Shown here in pieces: positions 2,833 through 46,049 of a DNA stretch of 47,498 nt. A program made the translations under genes and the position numbers. Each line of letters starts with the position of its first letter. Positions within the stretch are counted from its first letter, which is position 1. The DNA lies in IMG/VR virus record IMGVR_UViG_3300037227_000088, positions 1-47,498 of that record; one strand, written 5' to 3'. The DNA is from a virus. The notes beneath the pieces are model-generated. The model was not told where the DNA came from, ran no database searches, and worked only from the letters and a program-made list of their open reading frames with translations.

Positions 2833-5475
2833 ATGGGCTACACACAGGACGACATCACGGCGGCGGTCGGACAACTGCTCAACGCAAACATCCGATATCC
2901 AGTAGATCAACAAACGGGCGGCCGGCAGATCGCCACCACGTTCAATGACGTACAGGAGACGGCCGCCGCCACGTTTGTGATGTTTCCGGAGGCCATGCTG
3001 CACGTGGCCGAACTGTCGGCCCGCATGCTCATCACCAGTATGACGTCCTACCAGGCTGGTGTTGTTGCGCTGATCTCGGCAGTGGGGTCGGTCAACCGAC
3101 AGGTAGACGACGCGCAAGCAATAGCTCCGATGGCCAACATGTCGTCGGCGCTGATCGAGTTGGATGGTGTGGTGTCGAATGGGCGGTACAGCGGTCTTCA
3201 ATCAATACCGTCCTATCAACGGTTCATAGCCAACGCGTCCAGTTTCCTGTCGGTAGTGAAACCCGCCATCGTGGTGGGAGGTGACGTCGTTCCATCCAAG
3301 CGGCAGGTTGTGGCCTCGTTGCCCAATCAAGTGGCCGCCCTTCCCGGGGCGTTCTCAACCGTTTGGCACGGCAGCAGGAACTTCGCTGCAGCCGTTTCCA
3401 ACTACCAGTCGCTCAATCTACCGACCGTGTTGGTGCAGAACGTTGTTAGTCGGGCCAACGCTTTGTTGTTGTCACAGCACACCGATATGTCGGGCATGTC
3501 GGTGGAGCAGCAACAAGCGCTCTTGTACGACGCCACGTTGAGCGTGTTGTCCACCAAGGGTTTGTTGGGATTGATGGAGTCGTTCTCTCCTCCACCCGAA
3601 CAGTACGACGAAGTATCGGGGACGATCTACGCGTATGCCGATGCCAACCACCCGGTCGCAACTGTCGGATCGGTCACGGCCTCGTCCGCTGGTCCGTATT
3701 TCTTTCGCTACGGTGTCAGCGATTCGTTGTACGTGCAGATCGACAACAGCCCGACTGCCAACTTCCACATGGTTCTGCCTGCCATCTCGTCCACCTATTT
3801 GGAGGGATCGGTACCGGCCCCCTACGTGTTCGATCTGGGGGATGTGGCGCGTATCGACAACACCATAGCGGGCGACTACACGTTCGCGACCGACCAGAAT
3901 CTGAAGTTCTTGCTCGAAGCCACGGTCAACGGGGTCTACCAAAGCTGGACGATCGATTTCCCTATCGCGGCTGGAGTCCATACGGTCATCGAAGTGTACG
4001 AGGGTCTGTCCGCTTTCATACTGGCGCAGACCAGTAGCACGTCGTTCACCGCCATCACGTTGGTGGGGGCGGTTGCGTTTTCGATCATCAGTACGGTACT
4101 GGGCGCCAACTACAAGATCACCATGTTGGACGGTTCGGCCAACAGTACGCTGGGGTTCCAAACGGGTGCCAGCTCGGTTGGACGCAGTAGAAACGACCAG
4201 CTGCTCGTCACCTACAAGAGTGCGCTGGTCACCACTCCCATCAATTTCATCATCACGTTTCCGACAGGGGCGCAAACGATTGATCAAGCCGTGGCCGTCA
4301 TCAATTCGTCCAGGCCCCCACAGTTGGTCAATCTGCTGCATGCCGAACCGCATCAATACCTGGTTGGTGGCGGCACTAAAACGTTCTGCAGGCTGGTGGT
4401 GGACGACCTATCGGTAGATGCCGACATGGTGGTGACCGGTGCGATAGTGACCGGGCAGGTTCCAAACTCCGGTATCGGTCTGGGCGGAGAGGTCACACAT
4501 TTGCCAATCACAACGCAAAGAACTGCCGATTTCATAAACGCTTTTCCGCCCGCATCGACCGTTCCGCCTCCAACCCCACCACCGAAATTCTCCGACTACG
4601 CGGTAGCCGATGTCGTGACGGATCAAACAGGCAAACAGTATTTGCGCATCTCGTCGAAGAACAAAAACTCGTCTGCCACTGAAGTGCTGTTGCAAGGCAC
4701 GGCCGTGGCTGTGATGTTCGGTCAACCACAAGCTGTGGGGTTGGGCACATCCAAATGGTACCGGATGTCTGACAGCAATCCGGTCATCACCGTAGGAGAC
4801 ATCATCGAATTGCACGACACGGATGTGAATGACGCGACCGTCCAGTCAGTGACCAGTGACGGTCTGCTCTACACCGACTTGCCGATGGAGTTCTATCGGT
4901 CCTATCAGTTTGGCCATGCTGGCGCCTACTATGCGGTAGCGGTAAGAGGGGACAGGAAATCGTTCGAGCAGGTGATCGCCGATGAAACGTTCCAGCAGTT
5001 TCTGTCTAACGATCACAGCTCTTTTTTCAGCAATTTGAACCGATACACCAACATGATGTTGGCGGACAAGAATCCGACAGAAGCAGAGATAAACATTGTG
5101 CTGGGCGAACTGTCCACCCACTTGGCAGAGTTGACCTACGTGATCGCACTGCTGTCAGAGTTCCACGCGTACCCGTGTCCGGCTGTGGATCGTTTGTTCA
5201 AACTTATGAACGAGAAGGGCAGCGATCGGGCGGTCGACACACTGCTGCAGTGCCAGTTCTCGGAGTTCTTCGGTCTCAACGTTGACACAAGTTCCTATGC
5301 CGGTACGGTCATGTCGGGATTGCGCACAGTAGTTCAGCAGGACCTGCCTGTGGCGAAGTTCGATCGCCCCAAAGGCGGTCGTTCCGTTATATCCGCAGCC
5401 GCCAGCGCCGACTACGACTCGGATCTATCTGACGTCGCACCCGACGATAGCAAATACAACATCGACAAAGTCTGA
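2833..5475 (+). CDS. Large structural (tail/baseplate) protein
   Basis: 880 residues from the ATG at 2833; a TTG at 2821 in frame would overlap the preceding gene. The first ~270 residues are helical and rich in Ala, Val and Ser, the next ~400 are beta-rich. Around residues 390-470 is a flagellin/hook-like module with the pattern 'TAITLVGAVAFSIISTVLG' then 'DGSANSTLGFQTG', and near residue 490 'GAQTIDQAVAVINSS'; the same type of module recurs in the baseplate-J-like protein at 12317. The C-terminal ~180 residues are helical again. There is no enzyme motif. Size, composition and position suggest a virion component, probably of tail or baseplate; exact role unknown. Confidence 0.75.
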   Translation: MGYTQDDITAAVGQLLNANIRYPVDQQTGGRQIATTFNDVQETAAATFVMFPEAMLHVAELSARMLITSMTSYQAGVVALISAVGSVNRQVDDAQAIAPMANMSSALIELDGVVSNGRYSGLQSIPSYQRFIANASSFLSVVKPAIVVGGDVVPSKRQVVASLPNQVAALPGAFSTVWHGSRNFAAAVSNYQSLNLPTVLVQNVVSRANALLLSQHTDMSGMSVEQQQALLYDATLSVLSTKGLLGLMESFSPPPEQYDEVSGTIYAYADANHPVATVGSVTASSAGPYFFRYGVSDSLYVQIDNSPTANFHMVLPAISSTYLEGSVPAPYVFDLGDVARIDNTIAGDYTFATDQNLKFLLEATVNGVYQSWTIDFPIAAGVHTVIEVYEGLSAFILAQTSSTSFTAITLVGAVAFSIISTVLGANYKITMLDGSANSTLGFQTGASSVGRSRNDQLLVTYKSALVTTPINFIITFPTGAQTIDQAVAVINSSRPPQLVNLLHAEPHQYLVGGGTKTFCRLVVDDLSVDADMVVTGAIVTGQVPNSGIGLGGEVTHLPITTQRTADFINAFPPASTVPPPTPPPKFSDYAVADVVTDQTGKQYLRISSKNKNSSATEVLLQGTAVAVMFGQPQAVGLGTSKWYRMSDSNPVITVGDIIELHDTDVNDATVQSVTSDGLLYTDLPMEFYRSYQFGHAGAYYAVAVRGDRKSFEQVIADETFQQFLSNDHSSFFSNLNRYTNMMLADKNPTEAEINIVLGELSTHLAELTYVIALLSEFHAYPCPAVDRLFKLMNEKGSDRAVDTLLQCQFSEFFGLNVDTSSYAGTVMSGLRTVVQQDLPVAKFDRPKGGRSVISAAASADYDSDLSDVAPDDSKYNIDKV

Positions 5476-5498
5476 CGGTCAACACAACGGACACAACG

Positions 5499-5528
5499 TT
5501 GACACATCCGAACACATCAAGATAGAAC
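5499..5528 (+). promoter_or_regulatory. Candidate sigma70-type promoter before lysin gene
   Basis: A perfect -35 TTGACA at 5499-5504 is followed after 18 nt by TAGAAC (5523-5528, 4 of 6 matches to TATAAT). It lies in the 142-nt gap after the structural gene and about 90 nt before the lysin start. No experimental support; the weak -10 keeps confidence low. Confidence 0.35.
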
Positions 5529-5617
5529 TGCATCCATCGGCTCCCTGCAGTTTGCCGTCTGGTGTGCTGCCGGATCTTTTTCTTATCGGCGAAATACAAC
5601 AACGAAGGAGCACTACA

Positions 5618-6340
5618 ATGCGAGAACTGATCATCTTATGGATCTTGTCTGCCATGAACGTGATGGCGCCTCCGCATCGACACCACTACGAGGTGTTGGC
5701 CAATGAATCGTACGAACAGGCGGATGCGCGTTATCGCGAGATTGCAGAAGCAATCGTGGATGAGTCGTTTGCGGGCACCCCCGTGTTCGATGGGCGACAT
5801 GCCAGAATCAACACGTCCATGTTGGTCGCCACCATGTTCGTGATGGAGAGTGGACTGCGTCGTGACGTGGACTTGGGGATTGGGTCGGCTCGCTTGCGGC
5901 ATGCCGGTTTGAACGACTTTGGCAGGTCGTGGTGTATGGGGCAGATCATGCTGGGGTACAAACGTATGGTCGACCCAAACGATCCAGACGAGTCGGTCGA
6001 CACCAGCATCAAGACGACACCAGAAGGGTGGACTGGGCCCGAGTTGGTGGCGGACCGTCGAAAGTGTGTTCGCGCCACCATCAACGCGTTGAAGCGTTCA
6101 ATGTCGACTTGTTGGAAGTTGCCGGTTGCCCAGCAGTTGTCGGTCTACGCCGCGGGCAACTGCGAATCGGAAACAGGAAGGAGACTTTCGGAACGTCGCA
6201 TGAATGTGTTTCTGCGCTGGCAAACACGCGATCGTCCCAAATTGGTGGACGAAGATGTGATCAAGGAGTTACGAGATGGAACCATCCCACTGGCAAACTC
6301 GGGAACAGCAACGACAACAACAACGTCAGGAATACTATGA
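5618..6340 (+). CDS. Lysozyme-like/lytic transglycosylase endolysin
   Basis: 240 residues from the ATG at 5618, preceded by AAGGAG at 5605-5610; the longer in-frame start at 5552 has no ribosome site. Residues 4-17 (LIILWILSAMNVMA) are hydrophobic and look like a signal or signal-anchor segment. The core fits the lysozyme/transglycosylase SLT superfamily: catalytic-type Glu77 in 'FVMESGLRRDVD', the 'GRSWCMGQIMLG' strand near residue 105, and a later 'WTGPELVADRRKCVRATI' segment and 'LSVYAAGNC' motif seen in many phage and bacterial members. It would cleave the glycan strand of peptidoglycan, for lysis or for tail penetration. The C-terminal TTTTTT-like Thr tail is unusual; the 3' end overlaps the next gene by 65 nt. 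Confidence 0.8.
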   Translation: MRELIILWILSAMNVMAPPHRHHYEVLANESYEQADARYREIAEAIVDESFAGTPVFDGRHARINTSMLVATMFVMESGLRRDVDLGIGSARLRHAGLNDFGRSWCMGQIMLGYKRMVDPNDPDESVDTSIKTTPEGWTGPELVADRRKCVRATINALKRSMSTCWKLPVAQQLSVYAAGNCESETGRRLSERRMNVFLRWQTRDRPKLVDEDVIKELRDGTIPLANSGTATTTTTSGIL

Positions 6341-6521
6341 GTATCTGCTGGCCTGCTGGTCACAAGAATGCCAACAGGCCGGTATTCAACCTCCCATCTA
6401 TATGCTTTCGGTTACGTGTCACGGCAACGGCATGGTCAGCTACGTGGTAGGAAAAGAGCCGCCCGGCCCCTGCATTCAATTGACCTACCGGTCGGGCGAT
6501 CTGCTTCCCCCACCAGAATGA
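6276..6521 (+). CDS. Small Gln-rich unknown protein
   Basis: 81 residues. The ATG at 6276 has a good AAGGAG at 6263-6268 lying inside the lysin gene, which supports translation despite the 65-nt overlap in another frame. The N-terminus is Gln/Glu-rich and helical (REQQRQQQRQEYYEYLL), followed by a short beta-like region with three Cys (two of them near the helix end). No transmembrane segment or lipobox is seen, so a spanin or holin is not supported. Its place directly after the lysin suggests a lysis-associated role, but this is inference. Confidence 0.65.
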   Translation: MEPSHWQTREQQRQQQRQEYYEYLLACWSQECQQAGIQPPIYMLSVTCHGNGMVSYVVGKEPPGPCIQLTYRSGDLLPPPE

Positions 6522-6549
6522 CGGCCCAGCCGTCACAAAGGAGACGATC

Positions 6550-7845
6550 ATGCACGTTCTAGTGGAACTTCAGGAATTGCTAGCTGTTGTGCGTGCAGCG
6601 ACCGAACTGAAACAAGATGGACCCGAGTACTGCAAACAGCCGACACACGTTTCCATGCGGATCGAGAACGGACTGCTTCGTGTTGAATCGCAGGTGCAGT
6701 GGACCCGAATGGTTGCGTGGTTGCCGGTGGAGGACCTATCCGAGGACACCAGCACGGTGTCGGTGGCGTTGGTGGAGGCCGGCAGGTTGGATCATTTGCT
6801 TGCCCAGCAGTCTAGGCATTCGGTGGAAATAGTACTGACGGGCCACACCCTGCAGGTGGGCCGTGCTGGTTCGTTGCCGCTACAGTTTCCACAGCACATC
6901 GAGCTCTACGGTGACGTTGAGGTCCACCCTATCGCAACTGTCGGTACGGACCTGTTGGGCAAGATCCTGCCGTTGGCCATCGAGTTCATGTCGGGCAGTG
7001 TTGACAAAGAATGCTTTGGCTTGCACGTGGAACCAAGTCCAGATGGACGACCGTATCTGCGATTTTGTGCGACCAATGGGTGCGGCTTGCTGGTCGCGGA
7101 CCTTCAGGAGGGCGTCGGTCATGTTGCCGACGGTTCGGTCATGCCGGACGGTTTGTTTGTGGAACGCCCAACCATCCAGGCGGTGCTTTCTTGTTTGTCC
7201 CTGTGGGACGGCCATCCTGGTGATTGCGAACTGCGCGTTGGCCACCGGTCGCAGTTGGAACCGGTCGTGTGGTTTGATCTAGCTGGTGCGGGCCAAAGGG
7301 TGGCCATCTCCACGACCCAACGGGGCCGTTTCAATAACTACCGTAGCGTTCTCTATGGAAGTGAGCGACCGGGCGTGTTCCTGTGGGCCGACGCACAGGA
7401 GATCAATCAATTGGCGAAAGACGCAATTGTGGCGGGCAAGCAGAAGCGAAAAGGTCACGGTCGAGTGGGATTTCGTTTTCTATACGGACAGGACGGTGCG
7501 CCGTCCGTTCAGGTTGGCTATGCCGTCACTATGAAGGGGGAGGAAAAAGAAACCTGTCAGCACCACCCACTGCCGAGCAGCAAGGTGGCGGTTGTAGGAC
7601 AAGGATTGGCCGAGCCTCGAGACAGCAGGGAAAGCCAACAGACCAACGACTACCCGTCCAGCTACAGGGTCGTTACATTGGACGCCAAATACTTGTTGGC
7701 GATCAGTAGGCAGCGGACCGGCATCCTGACGTTCAAGTTTCATGGATGTGTCGATCCCATCGAAGTCATATCAACAACCGGCCCGGACCGCCTGTATCAT
7801 GTGCTCATGCCGATCAGAAACGGCTTTGGCGCGGAGGAACTGTAG
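6550..7845 (+). CDS. dnaN: DNA polymerase III beta-like sliding clamp
   Basis: 431 residues; ATG at 6550 follows AAGGAG at 6538-6543. The protein shows the DnaN plan of three repeated clamp domains. Residues ~175-185 carry 'FCATNGCGLLVADL', matching the 'ATDGHRLA' strand that begins after the first domain boundary of bacterial clamps. The C-terminus 'TLDAKYLLAISRQ', then 'GILTFKFHGCVDPIEV' and the terminal 'YHVLMPIR' match the closing strands of DnaN ('YVLMPM' type), which form the pocket for client peptides. It is longer than the usual ~365 residues and diverged. It would encircle DNA and hold the phage polymerase at the fork. It lies among lysis and nucleotide genes, far from the polymerase on the other strand. 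Confidence 0.8.
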   Translation: MHVLVELQELLAVVRAATELKQDGPEYCKQPTHVSMRIENGLLRVESQVQWTRMVAWLPVEDLSEDTSTVSVALVEAGRLDHLLAQQSRHSVEIVLTGHTLQVGRAGSLPLQFPQHIELYGDVEVHPIATVGTDLLGKILPLAIEFMSGSVDKECFGLHVEPSPDGRPYLRFCATNGCGLLVADLQEGVGHVADGSVMPDGLFVERPTIQAVLSCLSLWDGHPGDCELRVGHRSQLEPVVWFDLAGAGQRVAISTTQRGRFNNYRSVLYGSERPGVFLWADAQEINQLAKDAIVAGKQKRKGHGRVGFRFLYGQDGAPSVQVGYAVTMKGEEKETCQHHPLPSSKVAVVGQGLAEPRDSRESQQTNDYPSSYRVVTLDAKYLLAISRQRTGILTFKFHGCVDPIEVISTTGPDRLYHVLMPIRNGFGAEEL

Positions 7846-7846
7846 G

Positions 7847-8149
7847 ATGAATCAAGAAACCAAACTGGCGCTTCAGTGCGGCGCCCGCCTCAGGCAGGTC
7901 GTCACCGACATCCTGGGGTTGATCGAGTACGTAGACACGAAACAAAACCATCACGATGCGGTGCTGCAACGGGAGCGGCTTCGTCAGGCTGTTGACGAGG
8001 TCAAGAAGCTGTTGATGGACAACGGGTTGTTCGAACGGGTCTACCCATTGGAGCCGTTCGACAACGAGCAGTTTCGACAGGCTTGTGTCAGGACGTTTGG
8101 CAATTGGATAACCTACGAGGTGCTGGGCAACAAGGAGACGAGCAAATGA
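7847..8149 (+). CDS. Small helical unknown protein
   Basis: 100 residues. The start is the ATG at 7847, preceded by GGAGG at 7833-7837 and overlapping the clamp stop region by one codon spacing; an upstream in-frame start would lie wholly inside dnaN. The sequence is predominantly helical with a charged segment (QRERLRQAVDEVKKLLMDNG). The stop overlaps the thyX start (ATGA), so it is translationally coupled to it. Not recognised; no cysteines or nucleotide-binding motif. Between clamp and thymidylate synthase it may be an accessory to nucleotide metabolism, but nothing in the sequence proves it. Confidence 0.7.
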   Translation: MNQETKLALQCGARLRQVVTDILGLIEYVDTKQNHHDAVLQRERLRQAVDEVKKLLMDNGLFERVYPLEPFDNEQFRQACVRTFGNWITYEVLGNKETSK

Positions 8150-9015
8150 AACTAGTACAAGCCGGCTACCGTATTGATGACATGCCTGATGGCGACGCGG
8201 CGTTGGCCAAGATCGAACGGCTCGGAAGGATCGCGTACAAATCGGAGGGGTTGATTGACGATGGGCGCGTTCGCTGTGAAGGCTGTGACATCATGGCCGA
8301 GGCACGAGGTGGCGATAGGAATTTTGAGTGTGCTTGTTGTGGGGGCAGCGGTTGGCTACAGGTGCGAGAACCCTCATCTCACAAGTTCGTCAAGAAGATC
8401 CTGCAGGCTGAGCGCAAGGCCAAGATGATCATCGATACCGAGTTGTACCTGCGGGACGCCCCCATCACTCACAGTAACCAACGACGTGCCAACGAACTGG
8501 TCGACAACATCGTCAGCTACATGCAGCAAAATCCAGCGCACGAGTCCGTCATCGAGCATTGCAGTGCAACGGTAGTGTTCACGACCAATGTCGGTGTGAC
8601 GCACGAGCTGGTTCGACATAGGATTGCAAGCTACACGCAGGAAAGCACCAGGTACTGTGCGTACAACAAGGACAAGTTCGACAATCAAGTGTCGTTCATC
8701 GAAAGGGTGTTTTGGGGCAAAGTCACAGATGAGGAAAAGATCAAGGCCGGCTTTGCTGTCTGGCGTAAGGTCATGGAGACGTCGGAGTGGGGGTACTTGG
8801 AGTTGTTGAGATTGGGATTCGAACCTCAAATCGCACGAGATTGCCTGACCAAGGCGACCAAGACGGAGATCGCCACGACCGCAAATTTCAGAGAGTGGAG
8901 AACAATCTTCGGACTGCGGGCCGTTGAACGTGCCCATCCAGACATGTGGCGTGCTCTCATGGTCCCGCTGCGTTATGAGTTCAGAAAGCGCATCCCAATC
9001 ATCTTCGACGAGTAG
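8146..9015 (+). CDS. thyX: Flavin-dependent thymidylate synthase with zinc-finger insertion
   Basis: 289 residues starting at the ATG in an ATGA overlap; AAGGAG lies at 8132-8136. It converts dUMP to dTMP using FAD, NADPH and methylenetetrahydrofolate. The ThyX signature RHRxxSxxxxSxR is complete at residues 157-169 (RHRIASYTQESTR), preceded by 'HESVIEH', a conserved ThyX segment. Residues ~40-72 form an insertion with C44-x2-C47 and a C62-x2-C65-x-G-x-G motif, like a DnaJ-type zinc finger, not a normal ThyX feature. The C-terminal 'LTKATKTEIATTANFREWRTIFGLR' region (spread over residues ~232-258) matches the family's active-site strand with NFREW and the FL.LR-type end. Position with a clamp and RNase H indicates phage DNA synthesis. 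Confidence 0.93.
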   Translation: MKLVQAGYRIDDMPDGDAALAKIERLGRIAYKSEGLIDDGRVRCEGCDIMAEARGGDRNFECACCGGSGWLQVREPSSHKFVKKILQAERKAKMIIDTELYLRDAPITHSNQRRANELVDNIVSYMQQNPAHESVIEHCSATVVFTTNVGVTHELVRHRIASYTQESTRYCAYNKDKFDNQVSFIERVFWGKVTDEEKIKAGFAVWRKVMETSEWGYLELLRLGFEPQIARDCLTKATKTEIATTANFREWRTIFGLRAVERAHPDMWRALMVPLRYEFRKRIPIIFDE

Positions 9016-9422: not shown

Positions 9423-9591
9423 AACAGAACAAGACGAGACGAAGGAACCGAAGGAGTTCGACGAGCTGCAGGCGATGCGTCGGATGGATACGCTGTTGCG
9501 GATGGCACCGGATGATCAGACGCGTCGCAGGATCACCAGATGGCTGTTCGCCAAGTGGGGAGAGCCCGATGAGCAAGGCAAATCCGTCTGA
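9406..9591 (+). CDS. Small charged protein, unknown
   Basis: 61 residues. The ATG at 9406 has an ideal AGGAGG at 9395-9400; a GTG at 9400 is part of that site. The N-terminal half is acidic and probably disordered, the C-terminal half 'MDTLLRMAPDDQTRRRITRWL' is a helical, basic segment of a kind often seen in small phage proteins of unknown role ('D..RRR...WL'). It overlaps the 3' end of the previous gene and the 5' end of the RNase H gene, so it is part of the same translation-coupled row. No function can be assigned. Confidence 0.65.
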   Translation: MSRKAETEQDETKEPKEFDELQAMRRMDTLLRMAPDDQTRRRITRWLFAKWGEPDEQGKSV

Positions 9592-10273
9592 AGGTGAGGC
9601 GTTCTACCGGCAGGTCGTGGCTCCGTGTAGATGGGTTGTCGGGTTGGATGAGGTTGGAACGGGCGCGTTTGCCGGACCCATCTACATGGCCGCCACCGTG
9701 GTGGCGCCTTCGTTCACGTACAGTGGATTGTGCGACTCTAAGGACACGACCGAACGGTCGCGCGAGGAAGAACACGATCGTCTGGTTGCTTCGATCGGAC
9801 CTGGCAGGGTGTTCGTAGCATGCCACAGCTCCACCTACTTGGATCGCAAAGGTCTGCATCCGACCCTTCTGGACCTGATCGCCCAATTGATAGACCGAGC
9901 CGCCGCCACGTTGTCGCCGGATTACGAACCATCACTGTTTGTCATTGATGGGAAGCTGGGGCCGGGCATCCTGCAGGTTCCGAACGCCAGCCTGTTGATC
10001 ATACCTAAAGCCGACACGTTCGTGCCCGCCTGTATGGCGTCGGCCAACATTGCGAAGGTCTGGCGGGATCGATACATGCGGGCGATCGAACAAGATGAAC
10101 CCGCACCGCACGAGCCACCGTATCGGAATTTTGGGTTTTCCGGAAACAAAGGCTATGGCACGAAACAACACCAACTGGCGTTAGAACGGTTTGGTGTGAC
10201 GAACGAGCATCGACTTAGTTACCGGCCGGTCGGTGCCATTGCGGAGGCAAGAAGGAGACGACCATGCGGTTGA
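9569..10273 (+). CDS. rnhB: Ribonuclease HII/HIII-type
   Basis: 234 residues from the ATG at 9569, preceded by GGGAGAG and inside the previous gene's end. It cleaves RNA in RNA-DNA hybrids, for example removal of primers. Family motifs: 'VVGLDEVGTGAFAGPIY' with catalytic Asp27 and Glu28; 'LFVIDGKLGPG' with the next catalytic Asp; 'IPKADTFVPACMASANIAK' and 'VWRDRYM' (K and D of the active site); and 'NKGYGTKQHQLALERFG' followed by 'NEHRLSYRPV' near the C-terminus, as in RNase HII. The usual GRG of HII is GTG here, as in RNase HIII. No N-terminal TBP-like domain is present, so the layout is HII with an HIII-type motif. It shares a short overlap with the next gene. Confidence 0.92.
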   Translation: MSKANPSEGEAFYRQVVAPCRWVVGLDEVGTGAFAGPIYMAATVVAPSFTYSGLCDSKDTTERSREEEHDRLVASIGPGRVFVACHSSTYLDRKGLHPTLLDLIAQLIDRAAATLSPDYEPSLFVIDGKLGPGILQVPNASLLIIPKADTFVPACMASANIAKVWRDRYMRAIEQDEPAPHEPPYRNFGFSGNKGYGTKQHQLALERFGVTNEHRLSYRPVGAIAEARRRRPCG

Positions 10274-11489: not shown

Positions 11490-11588
11490 GGTTGCACCCT
11501 GTCAGATCCCGTGTTACCTGCAACCAGTCGTCTCCGTGTTTGCTGGTGGAGTGACGTACTAGGCCGACTGGGTAACCAGTCGGCCTAG
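11490..11588 (+). promoter_or_regulatory. Structured leader with alternative hairpins (attenuator-like)
   Basis: Four pairing segments can be seen. GGTTGCA (11490-11496) pairs with TGCAACC (11519-11525). The overlapping segment CCAGTCG (11524-11530) can instead pair with CGACTGG (11565-11571). That same segment is the inner left arm of a perfect 13-bp hairpin (left 11559-11571, loop GTAA, right 11576-11588). The arrangement is like a 1-2-3-4 attenuator. There is no strong T tract after the last hairpin. No tRNA-like fold is seen in 11489-11647. Confidence 0.45.
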
Positions 11589-11647
11589 GCGTTTAACAGC
11601 CGGTCAGGTTGTTCGGCATTTTGGCCCTGAAGGTGGTAGGGTAGGGC

Positions 11648-33554: not shown

Positions 33555-33715
33555 CTACGGGAACGCGAATCGTTCCGCATACCTAGCTACCTCTTGATCA
33601 TCGCCTTCTGGAACGGGCAGGCCTGCCGCCCGCAGGCTGGCCCGGATGTCCAGACCAACCTGCACGATCTCATCCGGACGTGGCGGCCGGCACCCATCCC
33701 AACAGGCGACTAGGC
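33555..33715 (-). CDS. -1 frame extension ORF after frameshift site
   Basis: Open -1 frame after a slippery heptamer (see the frameshift site) continues for 53 codons to TAG at 33555-33557. It has no upstream ATG; an in-frame GTG at 33665 with a preceding GGATGAG is the only separate start. The residues read like real protein: a short Cys/Pro stretch, then 'DEIVQVGLDIRASLRAAG' and 'DDQEVARYAERFAFP'. It could be a C-terminal extension made by ribosomal frameshift of the upstream 208-residue protein (fusion of about 260 residues), or a 36-residue separate gene from the GTG. The space between it and the + strand operon is only 12 nt. Confidence 0.55.
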
Positions 33716-34336
33716 TTTTCCCGATGATTTGAACGCGTCATCGATGAACTGGGGGGCTTCCGCCCCACCGATGACGGACTCGCCAATCTGCCCGAGCATC
33801 CACACGATGGCGTCGAGCTTTTGGTTGACGGTGGTCTGTTGTTCGCCGTAGCGAAGAAGATCGAGCATGTTCTTGCCCATCCCTTCGACATTCGCTTTTA
33901 CGACCTGCAGGTCATCACGAAGCGCCGCGATCATTCCGAGTGCTTGTGGGTCGACCTGTTGGGCCGGCGGTGTCGATCCAGTTGCGGGCGTCTGACTGGC
34001 CGCGGAGTTACGGGGCTTTCGGCCAGAAACCGCCGGTGTGGTGGTCGGTTGGGTGGGGGCGGCTGCTTGTGCGGGGGATTGTGGAGCAGCAGGTTCTGGC
34101 GTGGTGGGTGCGGCTTGTGCCGGTGCCCCACCGTTCTTGGCGTCGTAGGCCTTGAGGGCGGCGACCACCTGTTCGGCCCGTTCGGTTCGGGGCAGCCGTT
34201 GAAATGCCGCGTGTACTTGTTCGTCCGGCAGCATTCCGATCGATTCGGCAAACTTCAACAGCTCGTAGTTGCTGTGCTGACACAGTTCGGGTACTCCACG
34301 GGGTGCGGTTGCGATTTCGAGAATTCTTGAGCTCAT
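33710..34336 (-). CDS. Unknown protein with Pro/Ala linker and coiled coil; frameshift donor
   Basis: 208 residues from ATG 34336 (GGAG about 7 nt upstream on this strand, inside the ATGA overlap with the preceding gene). Residues 1-75 are an alpha-helical globular part ('VPELCQHSNYELLKFAESIG', 'PDEQVHAAFQRLPRTERAEQ'). Residues ~75-135 are a Pro/Ala/Thr/Gln linker. Residues ~135-195 are a helical/coiled-coil region ('LRDDLQVVKANVEGMGKNML'). It ends two codons after a G GGA AAA slip site. Not recognised. As the last gene of the replication/recombination operon it may be a DNA-binding or scaffold protein; the linker plus coiled coil suggests a partner-binding adaptor. Confidence 0.75.
   Translation of the reverse strand: MSSRILEIATAPRGVPELCQHSNYELLKFAESIGMLPDEQVHAAFQRLPRTERAEQVVAALKAYDAKNGGAPAQAAPTTPEPAAPQSPAQAAAPTQPTTTPAVSGRKPRNSAASQTPATGSTPPAQQVDPQALGMIAALRDDLQVVKANVEGMGKNMLDLLRYGEQQTTVNQKLDAIVWMLGQIGESVIGGAEAPQFIDDAFKSSGKA
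33716..33722 (-). other. Candidate -1 programmed frameshift site
   Basis: On the - strand, the codons TCG GGA AAA GCC TAG give the heptamer G GGA AAA, the exact X XXY YYZ form, with the same P-site glycine codon as the phage lambda G-GT slip site (G GGA AAG). It sits two codons before the stop, and the -1 frame beyond it is open for 53 codons. No strong downstream stem-loop is evident, only a short GC-rich stretch. Confidence 0.5.
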
Positions 34337-35821: not shown

Positions 35822-36662
35822 CCACCTTCCTTCCGTACCGCTTCCTTGTCGCTATGGTGGAGGGAGGAAGCGATTTGGGTTGTCGGTTGCGTACACCAAC
35901 CGGCTGGCAGGTCCACCTGTAGGCGCACCACTCGCACCAGATCCCTACCTCTCGATCGGGCAGGACGTCACCCTCCATCTCTAATAGGTCGTGCCAGTGG
36001 TTGAAACGGTCGGCCAGTTGGTTCCATACGCCGTGTTGGAACGGCACGAAGAACTGACCGCGACTGGGCGTGGTGTTTTCGTTGCCCTTGTTGTAGTAGA
36101 GCAACCAAAAGCACGGCACATCTAGACACGCCATGTAGGTGTGGACCTGTTCGATGTGTTCGTTCTTTGGACCGGTCAACTTCTCGTACTCGGCCGGTGA
36201 AGCCGTTTTGATCTCCAGACCGACCCGTACGGCATCGACCCATCGGTCCGACTGATCCTTCACCTTGATGGTGAAGATGCCATCACAGCTCGAGTAGATG
36301 TTGAACTGTCTGGCGATGTCGCTGTTGTACGGGTTGATTGGCACTTCGTCTTGGAAGCGGAGCTGACCGCCCAGGCTGTCCGTCCAATCGTGCATATCAC
36401 GTTGGAGACCGGAATGAACCCAGTGGCCGTGTCGAAACTTCTGCAGCCACATGGTGTCGGGTTTGTCCAATTTGGGCACCCCTTTCATCGTGTAGACGGC
36501 GCGCCTGCCGCAGTTCGATATCTCGGACGCGTGGATGCCGGCCGGCCGTTCGTGTTGTTCTCGACCTCTCCACTGTCCGTACATGGTGGAGATCTCTTGG
36601 GCCAGGGCGATCATCTGGTGGACCCCGTCGGTCTCCAGATCAGCGATTCGTAGAAGCGTCAT
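35811..36662 (-). CDS. PD-(D/E)XK exonuclease with Fe-S cluster motif (Cas4/RecB-like)
   Basis: 283 residues from ATG 36662, preceded by GGAGG on this strand and overlapping the previous gene. The nuclease fold signature is 'SCDGIFTIKV' (Asp), then 'VGLEIKTASPAEYEKL' (the ExK of PD-(D/E)XK), and 'HIEQVHTYMACL' (Gln motif). Four cysteines have the Fe-S 'staple' spacing of Cas4 and AddB: Cys51 in 'ISNCGRR' and a C-terminal 'CEWCAYRWTC' (C-x2-C-x5-C). It would resect DNA ends, cutting single strands, for recombination with the RecA-like protein next door. Family membership is clear in motif terms; it could equally be called a RecB-family phage exonuclease. No adjacent cas1/cas2 or CRISPR repeats were seen. 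Confidence 0.82.
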   Translation of the reverse strand: MTLLRIADLETDGVHQMIALAQEISTMYGQWRGREQHERPAGIHASEISNCGRRAVYTMKGVPKLDKPDTMWLQKFRHGHWVHSGLQRDMHDWTDSLGGQLRFQDEVPINPYNSDIARQFNIYSSCDGIFTIKVKDQSDRWVDAVRVGLEIKTASPAEYEKLTGPKNEHIEQVHTYMACLDVPCFWLLYYNKGNENTTPSRGQFFVPFQHGVWNQLADRFNHWHDLLEMEGDVLPDREVGIWCEWCAYRWTCQPVGVRNRQPKSLPPSTIATRKRYGRKVDGV

Positions 36663-37155
36663 GCCACCTCCTCCACACCGCGAACGGGATGAGCACCCAC
36701 TCGTCCCGTGGCCGCAGGGTCTTGTCCATGAATGTGATTTGGAAGGCCGGTTCCTCCGTGCTCACGCACTCCGATCTGATTTTCACCAGATCGTCGTACT
36801 TGACCGTGTAAGAATTGGCCTTCGTGTATTTGGCTTCCACCCGAAGGATCCCGTGTTTGCGAACATCTCCTTTGGCGTGGGCCATAGAGCCAGACGCCTT
36901 TTGTCGTTGGCCTTTTATCGCTCGGGCGATCTTCTTCTCTTGCCTGTCCGACACCCTCTTCATCTGTCTGGTGACTGGTTGTCGACGGATGGGCGCCAGA
37001 ATGTACGCGACACCGTCGATCTCACAGCGGCGGCACAACCACTGAGAAACCGACGTGCCTGAGGTGATGCGTGTGGTCGAGCAGTTGGTCGTTCCACACG
37101 CACCACACGTACCGCCATCGGGTGCGAATTCGGTCGTTATAGCTTGTATGGGCAT
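36640..37155 (-). CDS. Hjc/VRR-like PD-(D/E)XK endonuclease with zinc ribbon
   Basis: 171 residues; ATG 37155 lies inside the end of the recA gene. Residues 17-44 are a zinc ribbon: CGAC (17-20) and CRRC (41-44). Residues ~75-160 fit a phage Holliday-junction-resolvase-like nuclease: 'RQEKKIARAIKGQRQKASGS', 'AKGDVRKHGILRVEAKYT' (Asp of GDV and the E-x-K of EAK), then 'YTVKYDDLVKIRSECV' and the strand 'EPAFQITFMD'. Known members cut branched DNA. With RusA-like and Cas4-like genes in the same row, it makes three different nucleases in one operon. Overlaps the next gene by 23 nt. Confidence 0.75.
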   Translation of the reverse strand: MPIQAITTEFAPDGGTCGACGTTNCSTTRITSGTSVSQWLCRRCEIDGVAYILAPIRRQPVTRQMKRVSDRQEKKIARAIKGQRQKASGSMAHAKGDVRKHGILRVEAKYTKANSYTVKYDDLVKIRSECVSTEEPAFQITFMDKTLRPRDEWVLIPFAVWRRWHDASTNR

Positions 37156-38522: not shown

Positions 38523-38541
38523 ATCGGTTCTCCTTAGGTTG

Positions 38542-38604
38542 GTTGAAGGGTGTAAGGAAATCCTACACCCTTCAACAATAACGTCAGCCAATCTGACGTT
38601 ATTG
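38542..38604 (-). other. Two abutting long hairpins upstream of recA unit
   Basis: Hairpin A: GTTGAAGGGTGTA (38542-38554) pairs with TACACCCTTCAAC (38564-38576), with GGA/TCC inside and one bulged A. Hairpin B: CAATAACGTCAG (38576-38587) pairs perfectly with CTGACGTTATTG (38593-38604), loop CCAAT. They share base 38576. They lie between the small gene upstream and the zinc-ribbon gene; the stop of the small ORF is inside hairpin B. Role may be termination, RNA processing or mRNA protection; T tracts are absent. Confidence 0.6.
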
Positions 38605-38730
38605 TCTTTGCATGCCGCGCAACACCTCCACCACACTAGCCAACCACTTGAGTTGCAGGACTGGGGTGCCGTCGTTGTGTTGTTTGGCCGTGTCGTACAG
38701 ACGACCGCATTGTCCGCCCTTCTCGGTCAT
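38599..38730 (-). CDS. Small ORF, possible frameshifted start
   Basis: 43 residues from ATG 38730 to TAA within hairpin B. The sequence reads as a genuine protein with the codon usage of the region: 'MTEKGGQCGRLYDTAKQHN' then 'LQLKWLASVVEVLRGMQRQ'. The open frame extends further upstream, with basic residues (KTKRSRNRIRW), up to a TGA near 38773. The best ribosome site (TAGGA, about 6 nt before ATG 38776) belongs to another frame that ends at 38636. A +1 shift would join them. Low confidence in the exact form. The rest of 38605-38846 holds only this and the hairpin at 38803. Confidence 0.4.
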   Translation of the reverse strand: MTEKGGQCGRLYDTAKQHNDGTPVLQLKWLASVVEVLRGMQRQ

Positions 38731-38802: not shown

Positions 38803-38835
38803 ACAAATGGTGTCGGTCGTAACGACACCATTTGT
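38803..38835 (-). terminator. Terminator-like hairpin after HU-like gene
   Basis: Perfect 13-bp stem: ACAAATGGTGTCG (38803-38815) and CGACACCATTTGT (38823-38835), loop of 7 nt. On the - strand it follows the stop of the HU-like gene by 11 nt and is trailed by ATTTTC, a weak T tract. Confidence 0.5.
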
Positions 38836-39115: not shown

Positions 39116-42100
39116 TTACTTGGCCGACGACCAATTGTCGGCAATGCCCAGCGAGATGCTGAGCGGAATGGCGAAGTCCTCGGGAAACGCGTGCTCCATG
39201 CATTCCTTCGCGACCTCCGCCGCCTTCTCGACCGTTTCGTTCGGGCACTCAAACACCAGTTCGTCGTGCACCTGCAACATCATGATGCAGCCGAACCGTC
39301 GTTTCAGTTGGGCGTCGTGACAACGGATCATCGCGACCTTCACGACATCGGCCGCGCTACCTTGGATCGGCAGGTTGGACGCCTGCCGTTCCGCTCTGGC
39401 CCGGTCTTCTTTTCCGACCGCATCGATGTCTGGAAGATAACGGCGTCGACCCAGCACGGTAAAACTGAATCCCGTCTCCTGTGCCGTTTTGATGGCCGTG
39501 TTGAAGTAGTGTTTGACCGCTGGGTAGCGGGTCATGTAGGCGTCGATCTTTGCCTGTGCTTCGTCGGGTGTGCAGCCCAGCCGTTTGGCCAGCGTCCACT
39601 TCTGCATACCGTAATTTAAGCCGAAGCCGACCGTCTTGGCATCTTGTCGGGCGCGAAGGCAGTGTCGAAAGTAGTCGGCCTGATCTTTCGACAGGGCGGC
39701 CCACTCCTCTTCCTTCATCTTCTTGGCCCGCTTGATGTCGTCGTACGGAAGGTCGAACACGAGCGAGGCGTTGCCCATGTGGATGTCGTGACCCCGCAGG
39801 AAGATGTCGAGCATGTCTTGTTCACCCGCCATGATGGCGAGAAGTCGCATTTCCAACTGCTCGAAGTCGCCTACTATTAGTGACTTTCCTGGTGGTGCGA
39901 TGAACGCTCGACGAATGTTATAACGGTCGGCCTCCTTGTCTTCGTCGGGACGGGGGAGGTTTTGCATGTTCGGCTCACTGCTCGAAAGGCGCCCAGTGTT
40001 GTGCGTGACGATCCCACCAGTAACGTGTGAATGGTCATCGGCAACCAGCATTCCGTACGTTTCTTCCGGCAATTCTGCATCAACAGAAACCACACGACTA
40101 CTGTGGAAAGACGCATACTTACCCTCAATGTGATCTTCGTCTTGCCATCTTCGGTATGCCCAAACATCTCGAATAATTCCGGGGGACACGCCGTATTCGT
40201 TGGCCAGTTCCGTTGCAGTAGGTGTGCAGCCAGTCGGAGTAGCCCACGTTCTGTCCTTGATGATGTTGTCTATTGATTGGAATGAAACACTGTGCTGTCT
40301 TGCTAGCGCTGTTTTGCCTACACCTGTAGCAAAGTCGTTACGAATCTTTTGTGCTGTAGCGTAGGATAGTTTAGCAGTGCAGCTGGGTGGTTGTCTGGGT
40401 CTTCCTAGACGTCGGATGCGCACCACATCCTTTTCGCGCAGCACTGATTCGCCAGATCTTCTTTTACTCATCGTGCCGTGGCGCATCGCATCTTGTCTGT
40501 TTTCTGCAAGTGTGCCGCATTGCAGATTTTGTAGCGTGTTGTCCCAAGCTATACCGTTCAAGTGTCTAGTTTCCTTTCCGGGTTCCCAACGCCCGAACGT
40601 TTCCAACACTAGTCGATGTACTGGGATGTCTTTTCGATCTTCTCCTCTTATCTGAGATCCGTTTCGGTACAAGCACACTTTGAGATGTCCCCATCTCCCT
40701 TTGGGTTTTTGTGCAAGAGAACGGCCAGTTTTCTTGTTGCGTACTCGCCCCCAAGAAGATACCTCAAAGTCGCTCCATTTAGGTACCTGACTCCAAACTT
40801 CTGGTTCCGAGTATACGGTGACTTCTTGGCCTATTTGAAGGTCAGTAGCTTTTGTCCAAGTATCCACAGTTCGATACTGGTGTTCTCCGTTGGTGCGCAA
40901 CGTCAGCCCGTTGGACAGCGTGACCTTGTATATGGGTTCTGCTGGACGTCTAGATGTTTCCACCACTGGTTTGGTACTGCCGGTGTGTGTTATGACCATG
41001 TCGCCCGTGCGTACTGTTTCTACGGAGATGTATCCGCGGTTGGTTAACACCAGTTCCCCAGCAGGCATACACACAGCAACGTGCTGGTTGTAGTTTGTGT
41101 GTACGCGACCGGTTGGTTGTACCTGTTCCAACATACCGACCACGTAGGTGCCGTTCAGCTTTTTGATTTTGCCGTATTGACTCTTCAACGACAGCACTGC
41201 GTCCTCCGGGTGTTCCTCTTCCAGTCGTTCCAGCACGGTCTTGTCCACCGCAGGTGACCGCAAACCAGCCTTTCCACCATTCGTCATCTTTCGGATCGGA
41301 TACTTCATCACGTCGAACAGGTAGTGCTGCAGTTCTTTGTTCGAGTTGATGTTCATGATGGGGGAGCCGGCCTTGTCGGTCACGTGCGTGACCTCCCTGG
41401 CCAGCGCGTCCATGTCATCGTTCATCGGACGATCAAGCGATCGTAGGTACTCCTGATCGATCATCACGCCTTCTCGCTCGCACTCGAATAGCACGCGCGT
41501 GAACGGAAGTTCGACTCGGAAGTACAGGTCCGCCACCGTCTCGAACTCTTTGACGATCCACTCGGGTGTCGGCTGCATGCACGATTCGGTGGGCGTTTCA
41601 CACAGTTGCTTGAACAGGTTCTTGTAGATGGCGTACGTGCCCCACGCGTCATTGGTCGAGTACTCGATCAGTTTGGCCAAGTCATTTCGGTGACACCACA
41701 GGATCGCATCCTGCACGGTCCTGAAGCTTCCGCCAGCCGCCACCTCCTCGGTGGTGGAGTTCTGTGTCAACTTGCCTGCTTTGTTGAACCGAAACGTGTC
41801 TTTGAAATCGTTCCACCGGTAGCCTAGTACGTGTTCGGCCATGCTTTTGAGATCATGCGGCATGTCTTCGTACAGCATGGAGTGCATGACGATGACGTCC
41901 AAAAGCTCGCCCTTCACGTGCATCCCTACGTTAGCCAAGATGGCGCAGTCGTATTTGGCGTTGGCGAAGATCCATTGGCGGTACGGGTCTTCGAACAGAT
42001 CGACGAAGTACCGTAGGGAGTTGGACGGCATGCAGACGCGACGTTGTCGTTGGTCCGCATCCTCCCAGGCGAGTGACCAGAATAGCGGTAGGTCCTGCAT

Positions 42101-42247
42101 CTTGTTCAGACCGGTCGTTTCCGTGTCGATCGCCACCAGTGCGGTTGTCTTTAGTTCTTCGACCAGTTGGATGATGGCCTGCAGTTCGGCCGGTCTATCA
42201 GGGTCCAGCCAACAGGCGTTAGGCAGTTCGATGTTCCATTTGGGCAT
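39116..42247 (-). CDS. polA: Family A DNA polymerase interrupted by an HNH intein
   Basis: 1043 residues (685 after intein removal) from ATG 42247, chosen for the GGAG about 6 nt upstream; the longer frame to 42298 has none. A 3'-5' exonuclease domain comes first: Asp41 and Glu43 in 'ALVAIDTETTGLNK', 'WIFANAKYDCAILANVG', and 'YSTNDAWGTYAIYKNL'. Polymerase motif A is 'VGDFEQLEMRLL' with Asp794, motif B 'RQDAKTVGFGLNYGMQKW' (Lys, Phe, Tyr as in Pol I), and motif C 'LQVHDELVFE' with Asp995. The intein occupies residues 393-750, immediately before 'TGRLSSSEPNMQNLPRP', a conserved site. No 5'-nuclease domain is present. It copies the phage genome together with the helicase, primase and the clamp of the other strand. 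Confidence 0.95.
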   Translation of the reverse strand: MPKWNIELPNACWLDPDRPAELQAIIQLVEELKTTALVAIDTETTGLNKMQDLPLFWSLAWEDADQRQRRVCMPSNSLRYFVDLFEDPYRQWIFANAKYDCAILANVGMHVKGELLDVIVMHSMLYEDMPHDLKSMAEHVLGYRWNDFKDTFRFNKAGKLTQNSTTEEVAAGGSFRTVQDAILWCHRNDLAKLIEYSTNDAWGTYAIYKNLFKQLCETPTESCMQPTPEWIVKEFETVADLYFRVELPFTRVLFECEREGVMIDQEYLRSLDRPMNDDMDALAREVTHVTDKAGSPIMNINSNKELQHYLFDVMKYPIRKMTNGGKAGLRSPAVDKTVLERLEEEHPEDAVLSLKSQYGKIKKLNGTYVVGMLEQVQPTGRVHTNYNQHVAVCMPAGELVLTNRGYISVETVRTGDMVITHTGSTKPVVETSRRPAEPIYKVTLSNGLTLRTNGEHQYRTVDTWTKATDLQIGQEVTVYSEPEVWSQVPKWSDFEVSSWGRVRNKKTGRSLAQKPKGRWGHLKVCLYRNGSQIRGEDRKDIPVHRLVLETFGRWEPGKETRHLNGIAWDNTLQNLQCGTLAENRQDAMRHGTMSKRRSGESVLREKDVVRIRRLGRPRQPPSCTAKLSYATAQKIRNDFATGVGKTALARQHSVSFQSIDNIIKDRTWATPTGCTPTATELANEYGVSPGIIRDVWAYRRWQDEDHIEGKYASFHSSRVVSVDAELPEETYGMLVADDHSHVTGGIVTHNTGRLSSSEPNMQNLPRPDEDKEADRYNIRRAFIAPPGKSLIVGDFEQLEMRLLAIMAGEQDMLDIFLRGHDIHMGNASLVFDLPYDDIKRAKKMKEEEWAALSKDQADYFRHCLRARQDAKTVGFGLNYGMQKWTLAKRLGCTPDEAQAKIDAYMTRYPAVKHYFNTAIKTAQETGFSFTVLGRRRYLPDIDAVGKEDRARAERQASNLPIQGSAADVVKVAMIRCHDAQLKRRFGCIMMLQVHDELVFECPNETVEKAAEVAKECMEHAFPEDFAIPLSISLGIADNWSSAK
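39998..41071 (-). other. Intein with NUMOD4 and HNH homing endonuclease
   Basis: 358 residues, from Cys1 (codon 41069-41071) to the terminal His357-Asn358; the next residue is Thr of the polymerase. Splicing blocks visible: N-terminal 'CMPAGELVLTNRGYISVETV', block B 'TNGEH' (60-64), and the C-terminal 'DDHSHVTGGIVTHN'. Residues ~90-128 are a NUMOD4-type DNA-binding motif ('WSDFEVSSWGRVRNKKTG') and ~150-200 an HNH nuclease (His152, His170, Asn178, with 'NGIAWDNTLQNLQCGTLAEN'). Two helix-turn-helix-like pieces follow. It is therefore likely a mobile, bifunctional intein that splices itself and homes into the polymerase gene. Confidence 0.9.
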
Positions 42248-42264
42248 GGCAACTCCAGGGTGTG

Positions 42265-42296
42265 GGTGGTGGGCTGGGGACGGCCAGCCCACCACC
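42265..42296 (-). other. Intergenic hairpin before polA
   Basis: Perfect 13-bp stem GGTGGTGGGCTGG (42265-42277) and CCAGCCCACCACC (42284-42296), loop GGACGG. It fills the gap between the Cys-rich gene and polA. No T tract; it may lower polA expression, mark an RNA cut or stabilise the mRNA end. Confidence 0.55.
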
Positions 42297-42303
42297 AAAT
42301 GGA

Positions 42304-43503
42304 CTACTGACCGCCGCCCCGGTTGTACTCGGACGCGGCTGGATGTCGCGCGCCATCACCAACCGCAGCCGGTCCCTTCCAATCGGGCGCACCCGGCCCG
42401 CCAGCACCAAACAGACGGTTCTGTGTGGTCAAGTCGGTCGGCTGAATCAATTTGGGTAGATCCATAGGCACCCGGAAGTTGTCGGCCATGTTCTGGTTGT
42501 AAGCGGCGATCTCGGGTGGCACGAAGATGCCGTCGTAGCCCTCTTCCCAATCGTCGATCTTCAATTCGGTCCCGACCTTGCCGTCCATCGTTTCCCTGTG
42601 GACGTGTAGTACGACGTCGAACAGTGTGGCGGGTTCGGGGTTGTCCCCACACTTCATACACTTGTTGTATTGCCTGGGGAAGTCGTAACCACCGCAGACC
42701 GGACACAACATCCTGTCGCTCACCGTCTTCATGATCTCGTCTTCCTTGATGCGTGTTTCGCCATGTCGGAAGAACGGATGCTCACAATCTTCGTTCGCGC
42801 ACACGAACGCATCCCACGTCAGGCTGTTGCGCGTTTTACAACTCTTGCAGCACAATCGAAGGGCCTCGTCCTTTTTCAACAAGGTGTTGTGGTGGCTGAT
42901 CCCCATGTCCCAGTGCAGCTTGCGAGCGGGCAGCGTTAGCTTTCCGGCCGCGCAGTGCGGACAACCATCCAGTTCGCATCTGACCCACGTGTAGAACGGC
43001 TCGCCCTGGTTGTTCTTTTTGACCGCCCCGTCATCGTCCAGTTGTTCGATCCGGTGATAGGGGAAGTAGTGGATGATGCTGAACGAGAACATGTTGCGTT
43101 TGCTCATCGGGCCGAACACGGTCTTGCCCTTCTCGTCTCGGTGCATCAGTCCGAAGAACAGTTCGCATCCACGACACGGCTGTGCCTTCTTCTTGCTGCC
43201 ACTCCATGGGCCCGCACTACACACCGACGATTTCTCGTGGTTGTTGTCTCGGTGCTCGGTCCAGCTCCACCACGGAAACGACACCTTCACGAGCGTCTCG
43301 TTGTTTTCCGCCGGTATTTCGGTCGTGTAGTTGGCGTCCATGATTCGGACGACATCAGGACGTAGGTGGTTTTCGGTCGGCACGTACTTGTCCACCCACA
43401 CGGGCCTAGGTCCCGTGTTGTGTTTCTTCGACATCGATTTGCGTTGTACCCCGCCTCGTTGTGTCAGGGATGCGTGTGACCCCACTGTCGGTCTTCGTTC
43501 CAT
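42304..43503 (-). CDS. Cysteine-rich multi-zinc-ribbon protein, candidate ssDNA-binding
   Basis: 399 residues from ATG 43503 (GGGAGAG about 5 nt upstream), overlapping the primase gene by 40 nt. It has many paired Cys: 'CRGCELFFG', 'CELDGCPHC', 'CCKSCKT', 'CANEDC', 'CPVCGGYDF' and 'CMKCG', so at least three zinc ribbons are possible. The N-terminal part is basic, the C-terminal ~70 residues are Pro/Gly-rich and acidic in places. It sits between primase and polymerase, where many phages have their single-strand DNA-binding protein; that is the basis of the guess. A zinc-containing polymerase accessory protein is the alternative. No family name is safe. Confidence 0.6.
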   Translation of the reverse strand: MERRPTVGSHASLTQRGGVQRKSMSKKHNTGPRPVWVDKYVPTENHLRPDVVRIMDANYTTEIPAENNETLVKVSFPWWSWTEHRDNNHEKSSVCSAGPWSGSKKKAQPCRGCELFFGLMHRDEKGKTVFGPMSKRNMFSFSIIHYFPYHRIEQLDDDGAVKKNNQGEPFYTWVRCELDGCPHCAAGKLTLPARKLHWDMGISHHNTLLKKDEALRLCCKSCKTRNSLTWDAFVCANEDCEHPFFRHGETRIKEDEIMKTVSDRMLCPVCGGYDFPRQYNKCMKCGDNPEPATLFDVVLHVHRETMDGKVGTELKIDDWEEGYDGIFVPPEIAAYNQNMADNFRVPMDLPKLIQPTDLTTQNRLFGAGGPGAPDWKGPAAVGDGARHPAASEYNRGGGQ

Positions 43504-44483
43504 TTTTCTCTCCCGGGTTGTTTTGGTGACCACATTTGGAAAAGGACCGCCTTCTCTATTGCGTGATGCACCTCTTCTTCTAACAGGTCGTCTGGTTGTT
43601 CGTCTTCTGGTGGTCTGACCACCTTCACAAAAAGCGATTTCTGTAGGATTCTGCCACTACTCAACGTACCGGTTCGTCCAGCTAGATCGCCATCTAGCAT
43701 CAGTATGACGGGCACGCCCAACTGCTCGAGGATCCATTTCTGTTCGATGTTGATCCGGTTGGTCATCAGTGCCGCCACGTTGGTCAGGCCCGATTGCCAG
43801 ACCCACATGCAGGCCTTGAATCCCTCTACCAAGATGATGGGCTTATTTGCCAGTACGCATTCAGGCCCGGCCCGATGAATGTTCCACAGCAGTGCCCCTC
43901 TACTCGGTTCCTTTCGTGCGGGCAGCCCCCAGGTCTTGTACTCATTCGTGTAGATCTTGTATCGAGGACCAGTCCCTTCCATCCTCCTTCCGCTGATTCC
44001 CACTAGACGGCCATCAACATCTCGGAGCGGGAACGTCATCATGTTGTGGTAGAAATCGAACCCGATGTCGAAATGCCGCAAGGTAGCTTCTTTGAATCCG
44101 ACGTCGCGCAGTCTGGTCGGGCAGTAGTCGAAAATGCCAAGTAGGTTTTCAGGTAGTCGTTCGCCAGCCTTAGGGTCGAAGTTTTTGATGTCCTTGGCGG
44201 GGGGTGCTGCAAGACGCAGTCGTTCGACTAGGGCGTCGTACTGCAGTTTGATTTCGTATGGCGCGACCCCTATGTCCCGTAGAAAACGACCAAGATTGCC
44301 GGACGCGTTGCACGAGAAACAGAAGTAGATGCCCTTGGACAATGACATCGAGAAGGTTGTCGATCCTTGCGGATCGTTGGACATGTGGAAGGGACAGGAC
44401 GCCATGATGTTGTCCGGGCCCGACCGTTTGACCTTGCGTAGGTACTGTCTGGCTATTGCGTAGACGGTCTCGTAGTCACTCAT
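43464..44483 (-). CDS. dnaG: DnaG-type DNA primase
   Basis: 339 residues from ATG 44483, 4 nt after the helicase stop; no ribosome site, so translation is coupled. A zinc-binding domain comes first: Cys30-Pro-Phe-His33 and Cys55-Phe-Ser-Cys58 (CHCC type). The Toprim core follows: 'PIILVEGFKACMWVWQSG' (Glu) and 'PVILMLDGDLAGRTG' (the DxD-type Asp pair). The C-terminal ~60 residues are short and carry no helicase-binding domain of the usual length. It synthesises RNA primers on the lagging strand with the adjacent helicase. Known of family: Toprim metal site with acidic residues. It is shorter than E. coli DnaG (581). Confidence 0.88.
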   Translation of the reverse strand: MSDYETVYAIARQYLRKVKRSGPDNIMASCPFHMSNDPQGSTTFSMSLSKGIYFCFSCNASGNLGRFLRDIGVAPYEIKLQYDALVERLRLAAPPAKDIKNFDPKAGERLPENLLGIFDYCPTRLRDVGFKEATLRHFDIGFDFYHNMMTFPLRDVDGRLVGISGRRMEGTGPRYKIYTNEYKTWGLPARKEPSRGALLWNIHRAGPECVLANKPIILVEGFKACMWVWQSGLTNVAALMTNRINIEQKWILEQLGVPVILMLDGDLAGRTGTLSSGRILQKSLFVKVVRPPEDEQPDDLLEEEVHHAIEKAVLFQMWSPKQPGREKWNEDRQWGHTHP

Positions 44484-46022: not shown

Positions 46023-46049
46023 GGTTGGGGGCGCTCAGCGCCCCCAACC
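46023..46049 (-). terminator. Strong hairpin between gene blocks
   Basis: Perfect 12-bp GC-rich stem: GGTTGGGGGCGC (46023-46034) and GCGCCCCCAACC (46038-46049), loop TCA. On the - strand it follows the stop of the 46055 gene by 5 nt, and is trailed by GTTTCTTC. A TACACT box lies just beyond, 21 nt before the helicase start, but no -35 could be matched. Confidence 0.6.

Follow-up and report, generated by a model that had tools for sequence, protein, structure and literature searches.

A candidate -1 ribosomal frameshift signal and a strong predicted RNA hairpin at the end of a phage replication/recombination operon

The last gene of a minus-strand replication/recombination operon, which encodes a 208-residue protein, probably carries a signal for -1 programmed ribosomal frameshifting at its 3' end. 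The window, which is the whole 47,498-nucleotide stretch analyzed here, is a virus contig, and a single metagenome contig is its sole sequence source. At a suitable spacing, a slippery site precedes the strongest predicted RNA fold of the genome, so that a fraction of the ribosomes probably slips one base backward. It is an even call that this operon makes one protein in two forms by means of the heptamer G_GGA_AAA and a 111-nt, 45-pair hairpin, which itself encodes most of a 53-residue extension. The signal is self-contained in fewer than 200 bases.

The zero-frame gene (33710..34336, minus strand) ends with the residues ...DDAFKSSGKA* and has the ribosome-binding site AGGAG (-7.4). Its 208-aa product did not match any known family. 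A low-confidence model of this protein has a helical N-terminal part, a Pro/Ala/Thr linker, and long C-terminal helices. The operon that it closes contains genes for an intein-containing family A DNA polymerase (polA), a RecA/UvsX-like protein (recA/uvsX-like), a Cas4-like exonuclease, and RusA (rusA), and a DnaG-type primase and a DnaB-like helicase are encoded farther upstream of these. The intein splits the DNA polymerase A gene (39116-42298, minus strand) at residues of about 409-767 and has HNH/NUMOD4 features. Apart from the replication operon, the plus strand carries a ThyX-like thymidylate synthase gene (8083-9015) and an RNase HII-like gene (9512-10273).

The slippery heptamer G_GGA_AAA (33722-33716, minus strand) is in the zero-frame phase of the 208-codon gene, which ends in TTC AAA TCA TC[G GGA AAA] GCC TAG, so that one codon (GCC) separates the heptamer from the stop. 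The minus-strand context of the heptamer and the stretch downstream of it reads GACGCGTTCAAATCATCGGGAAAAGCCTAGTCGCCTG. GGGAAAA occurs once in the window, compared with 5.0 +/- 2.3 copies in shuffled sequences. In-frame heptamers of the form X_XXY_YYZ with Y=A/T number 11 per 14,158 codons of the listed genes, and among those 11 only G_GGA_AAA is no more than a few codons away from a stop. No Shine-Dalgarno-like stimulator was seen upstream of the heptamer. The initial annotation had described G GGA AAA in perfect zero-frame phase near the stop, and its coordinates and facts are correct; it had also placed the locus at the end of a replication/recombination operon and not at a tail chaperone site, with which the gene content of the operon agrees. 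According to a study in E. coli, AAR codons in the A site and all-purine heptamers slip well, a rule that GGGAAAA fits (PMC4066793). The same study states no efficiency for the exact motif GGGAAAA, and G_GG.A_AA.A is absent from its 18 motifs chosen as both underrepresented and more than 0.10% efficient in E. coli when unstimulated (PMC4066793).

A spacer of 5 nt, GCCTA (33711..33715, minus strand), leads from the heptamer to the base of a predicted RNA stem. This is a long branched hairpin with a small side arm (33600..33710, minus strand), a candidate frameshift stimulator of 111 nt and 45 pairs, 8 of them G-U, with a predicted energy of -76 kcal/mol. The segment that starts exactly at 33710 on the minus strand ranks lowest in both raw energy and GC-corrected score among the 94,776 windows of 111 nt on both strands, and the z-score relative to shuffled versions of that exact element is -7.7. 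Among the 27 in-frame heptamers of the listed genes, the downstream z-score is -5.8 at spacer 5 here and between -1.3 and +1.6 for the other 26. An Rfam search gave no match. Because 8 of the 45 hairpin pairs are G-U, the same stretch folds less stably by 24 kcal/mol as plus-strand RNA (-52 versus -76 kcal/mol). These G-U pairs and the far weaker plus-strand fold indicate that the fold belongs to the minus-strand transcript, which points to a structure maintained in that transcript.

Bacterial stimulators generally begin 5-8 nt downstream of the heptamer; hairpins of the IS3 family average 0.452 kcal/mol/nt, and in an examined set every stimulator spanned 17-131 nt and exceeded its surroundings by at least 0.09 kcal/mol/nt (PMC4066793). 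Branched stimulators such as that of IS911 are also known (PMC5009743). The predicted fold lies 5 nt downstream, within the roughly 5-9 nt expected of a stimulatory RNA structure, and has an energy of 0.685 kcal/mol/nt, an excess of 0.245 kcal/mol/nt over the local mean. Its spacer, size, and energy per nucleotide thus fit the known bacterial stimulators, and its strength may be enough to act as a roadblock to ribosomes.

Several other hairpins were found in this genome. Perfect palindromic hairpins of 12-14 bp lie in or near intergenic gaps at 11557-11590, 38538-38610, 38803-38835, and 46023-46049; their two strands are about equal and most are not followed by a U run. The site at 38538-38610 is a pair of adjacent hairpins that precede a likely ATG with AAGGAG. 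The gap hairpins of the genome are short, with G-U pairs absent or nearly so, in contrast to the long, G-U-containing, strand-biased fold at 33710-33600. A second strong fold, similar in size, was predicted at 37112-37003 on the minus strand (-62 kcal/mol), with a z-score of -6.0 there and of -0.9 on the plus strand. It consists of two hairpins on a closing stem near the start of an ORF of 171 codons (36640-37155), 24 nt past the stop of the recA-like gene. No slippery heptamer was found at this fold, and therefore strong folds in this operon can serve another purpose, for which processing or translational control can be considered.

This second fold is relevant to the main rival explanation of the locus, judged unlikely, in which the minus-strand operon has the hairpin as a non-coding element at its 3' end and the heptamer and open -1 frame are coincidental. 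Such an element could stop transcription, act as a barrier to RNase, serve as a processing site, or be a small stable RNA, placed where the two operons converge. The converging genes end at 33542 (plus strand) and 33710 (minus strand), and the hairpin occupies the gap between the two operons, where RNA 3'-end structure is expected anyway. Further strong hairpins are present in other gaps of the same phage, and GC-rich paired sequence is easily free of stops (p about 0.2 of being open). However, the gap hairpins are short, perfect, and strand-equal, whereas this one is long and strand-biased. The end of the stem is followed on the minus strand by GATCAAGAGG, which has no U run, and the terminator scan was silent here; both speak against a canonical intrinsic terminator on the minus strand. 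A canonical plus-strand terminator was rejected, because the plus-strand fold is weak and TTTTCCC, the complement of GGGAAAA, is separated from the stem by about 6 nt. In addition, the chance that an in-phase heptamer of the A/T type would fall 4-9 nt before one of the roughly three top structures is about 0.5%, as estimated here from the heptamer count and the scan of 111-nt windows. Non-coding paired sequence would likewise not be expected to show the codon usage seen in the -1 frame.

The -1 frame extension (33555..33716, minus strand) comprises 53 sense codons and a TAG, giving a 260-aa fusion if ribosomes slip. After the slip, the frame would read AGC CTA GTC ... CCG TAG, with the stop at 33557-33555. 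Upstream of the heptamer, the open stretch of the -1 frame is only 7 codons long. An open frame of 53 codons has a chance probability of about 0.21 at this composition, and therefore its openness alone is weak evidence; the predicted fold 5 nt past the heptamer and the codon usage of the frame are what set it apart from chance. The codon score was assessed against a null that keeps the hairpin, with base pairs shuffled inside the unchanged structure, and gave a p of 0.009, or about 0.001 jointly with openness. The -1 frame is therefore more phage-like in its codon usage than the hairpin imposes, an effect that is modest and comes from one sequence. A test of G-U pairs against codons did not discriminate between the reading frames. 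The claim of the initial annotation that this frame is open for 53 codons and has no ATG of its own was confirmed by reading the minus strand, and its description of the content as protein-like agrees with the codon score.

AlphaFold2, run on the 54-residue stretch as a single sequence without an alignment, predicted three helices, with a mean pLDDT of 83.1 for the best model. This was the one confident model of five, as the others had a pLDDT of 63-70. The prediction suggests that the extension probably forms three helices. No homologue of the extension was detected, and fold-match searches with its model gave no match.

The coding-like -1 frame, which starts straight after the heptamer, would also be expected from a real one-base indel at the A run, arising from an error in sequencing or from recent mutation. 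The true gene would then be one frame of 260 codons, and the fold would lie inside ordinary coding sequence; predicted genes of this operon do contain strong folds, as the one at 37112-37003 demonstrates. The single metagenome contig as the only source also leaves room for such an error. On the other hand, four consecutive A are a weak hot spot for errors, and it would be a coincidence for an indel to fall exactly on a canonical in-phase heptamer with a canonical spacer; this explanation is very improbable.

The only common start codon in the downstream part of the -1 frame is the GTG at 33665, from which a separate small gene of 36 codons (33555..33665, minus strand), perhaps coupled to the upstream gene, could be read. 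GGATGA lies upstream of this GTG, partly in an unpaired loop. Its predicted ribosome-binding energy is -3.3, whereas most minus-strand genes have values of about -7 to -13, and the GTG is paired within the hairpin stem. Some of the coding-like -1 frame also precedes the GTG. A gene of this kind, which had been offered earlier as the alternative, is not favored and is very unlikely because of the weak ribosome-binding site and its burial in the stem. The frameshift reading first proposed for the locus is partly supported, and it has gained a predicted fold of record strength at a 5-nt spacer and the coding-like codon usage of the -1 frame. It has thereby moved from plausible to somewhat favored, though short of proof.

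The following mechanism is proposed for the frameshift reading, where slipping, its rate, and a function for the extension are inferred. The majority of ribosomes would read ...TCG GGA AAA GCC TAG and terminate, releasing the product of 208 residues. On G_GGA_AAA, two tRNAs could re-pair one base back. The predicted hairpin, which begins 5 nt farther on, would meet the mRNA entry site while the heptamer occupies the P and A sites; it would slow the ribosome and thus promote the slip. Slipped ribosomes would melt the hairpin and translate 53 further codons. The outcome would be a minor protein of 260 residues with an added C-terminal segment, probably of three helices.

In lambda G-GT, the heptamer is G_GGA_AAG. 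The heptamer described here is of the same class. In that type of system, slippage close to the 3' terminus of the gene gives a minority product an additional C-terminal domain (PMC5009743), as it would here. Unlike lambda G-GT, the present locus is in a replication/recombination operon with no adjoining tape-measure gene. Membership in the G-GT tail assembly chaperones was rejected on this location, as the gene does not lie just upstream of a tape measure among tail genes. A large downstream structure is a further difference from tail chaperone systems, as a stimulator seems to be lacking in certain tailed phages (PMC5009743). The IS3 family, including IS911, resembles the locus in combining a heptamer with a large, sometimes branched hairpin of up to 131 nt that begins about 5-8 nt on (PMC4066793, PMC5009743). 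In contrast, the gene here is no transposase, and the upstream Shine-Dalgarno-like stimulator of those elements was not seen.

Bacterial dnaX is similar in having a stem-loop just past a slippery heptamer in a DNA-replication gene that yields two isoforms (PMC5009743). However, the slip in E. coli dnaX shortens the product (PMC4066793), whereas a slip here would lengthen it, and the 208-aa gene has no dnaX homology. Gene 10 of T3/T7, Lactobacillus phage A2, and Listeria phages also place a frameshifted C-terminal extension on a fraction of the product (PMC5009743). Those capsid and tail extensions belong to virion proteins, whereas the gene here is a member of a replication operon. According to a review, the cases of frameshifting in tailed dsDNA phages whose role is known involve tail chaperones and virion proteins (PMC5009743). 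The mechanism itself is known, and the unusual aspect of the present case, if real, is the kind of phage gene that is involved. Frameshifting in tailed dsDNA phages would then extend to early genes. If it is a true stimulator, the hairpin would rank with the more stable of those predicted and would share its bases with the coding sequence that it makes accessible.

No relative covering the locus at 33555-34336 was found in scans of viral contigs and genome contigs or by tblastn against annotated phages. The queries for the viral-contig scan were the 208-aa protein, the RecA/UvsX-like, Cas4-like, and DnaB proteins, alignments of the 42304-43533 protein and of PolA, and two degenerate patterns; several proteins of the window served as queries for tblastn. 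The only true close relative found was L002 (IMGVR_UViG_3300043540_000175), with a protein identity of about 65-78%. It matches the upstream half of the operon, and its contig ends inside polA, short of the frameshift locus. Upstream of its dnaB, L002 carries a helicase-like gene (5249-6952), with SGKT and DEGH-type motifs recognized by eye, and a gene that resembles uracil-glycosylase by eye (7364-8245); neither has a counterpart in the window. The polymerase of L002 is the same as the polA product of the window but is free of the intein.
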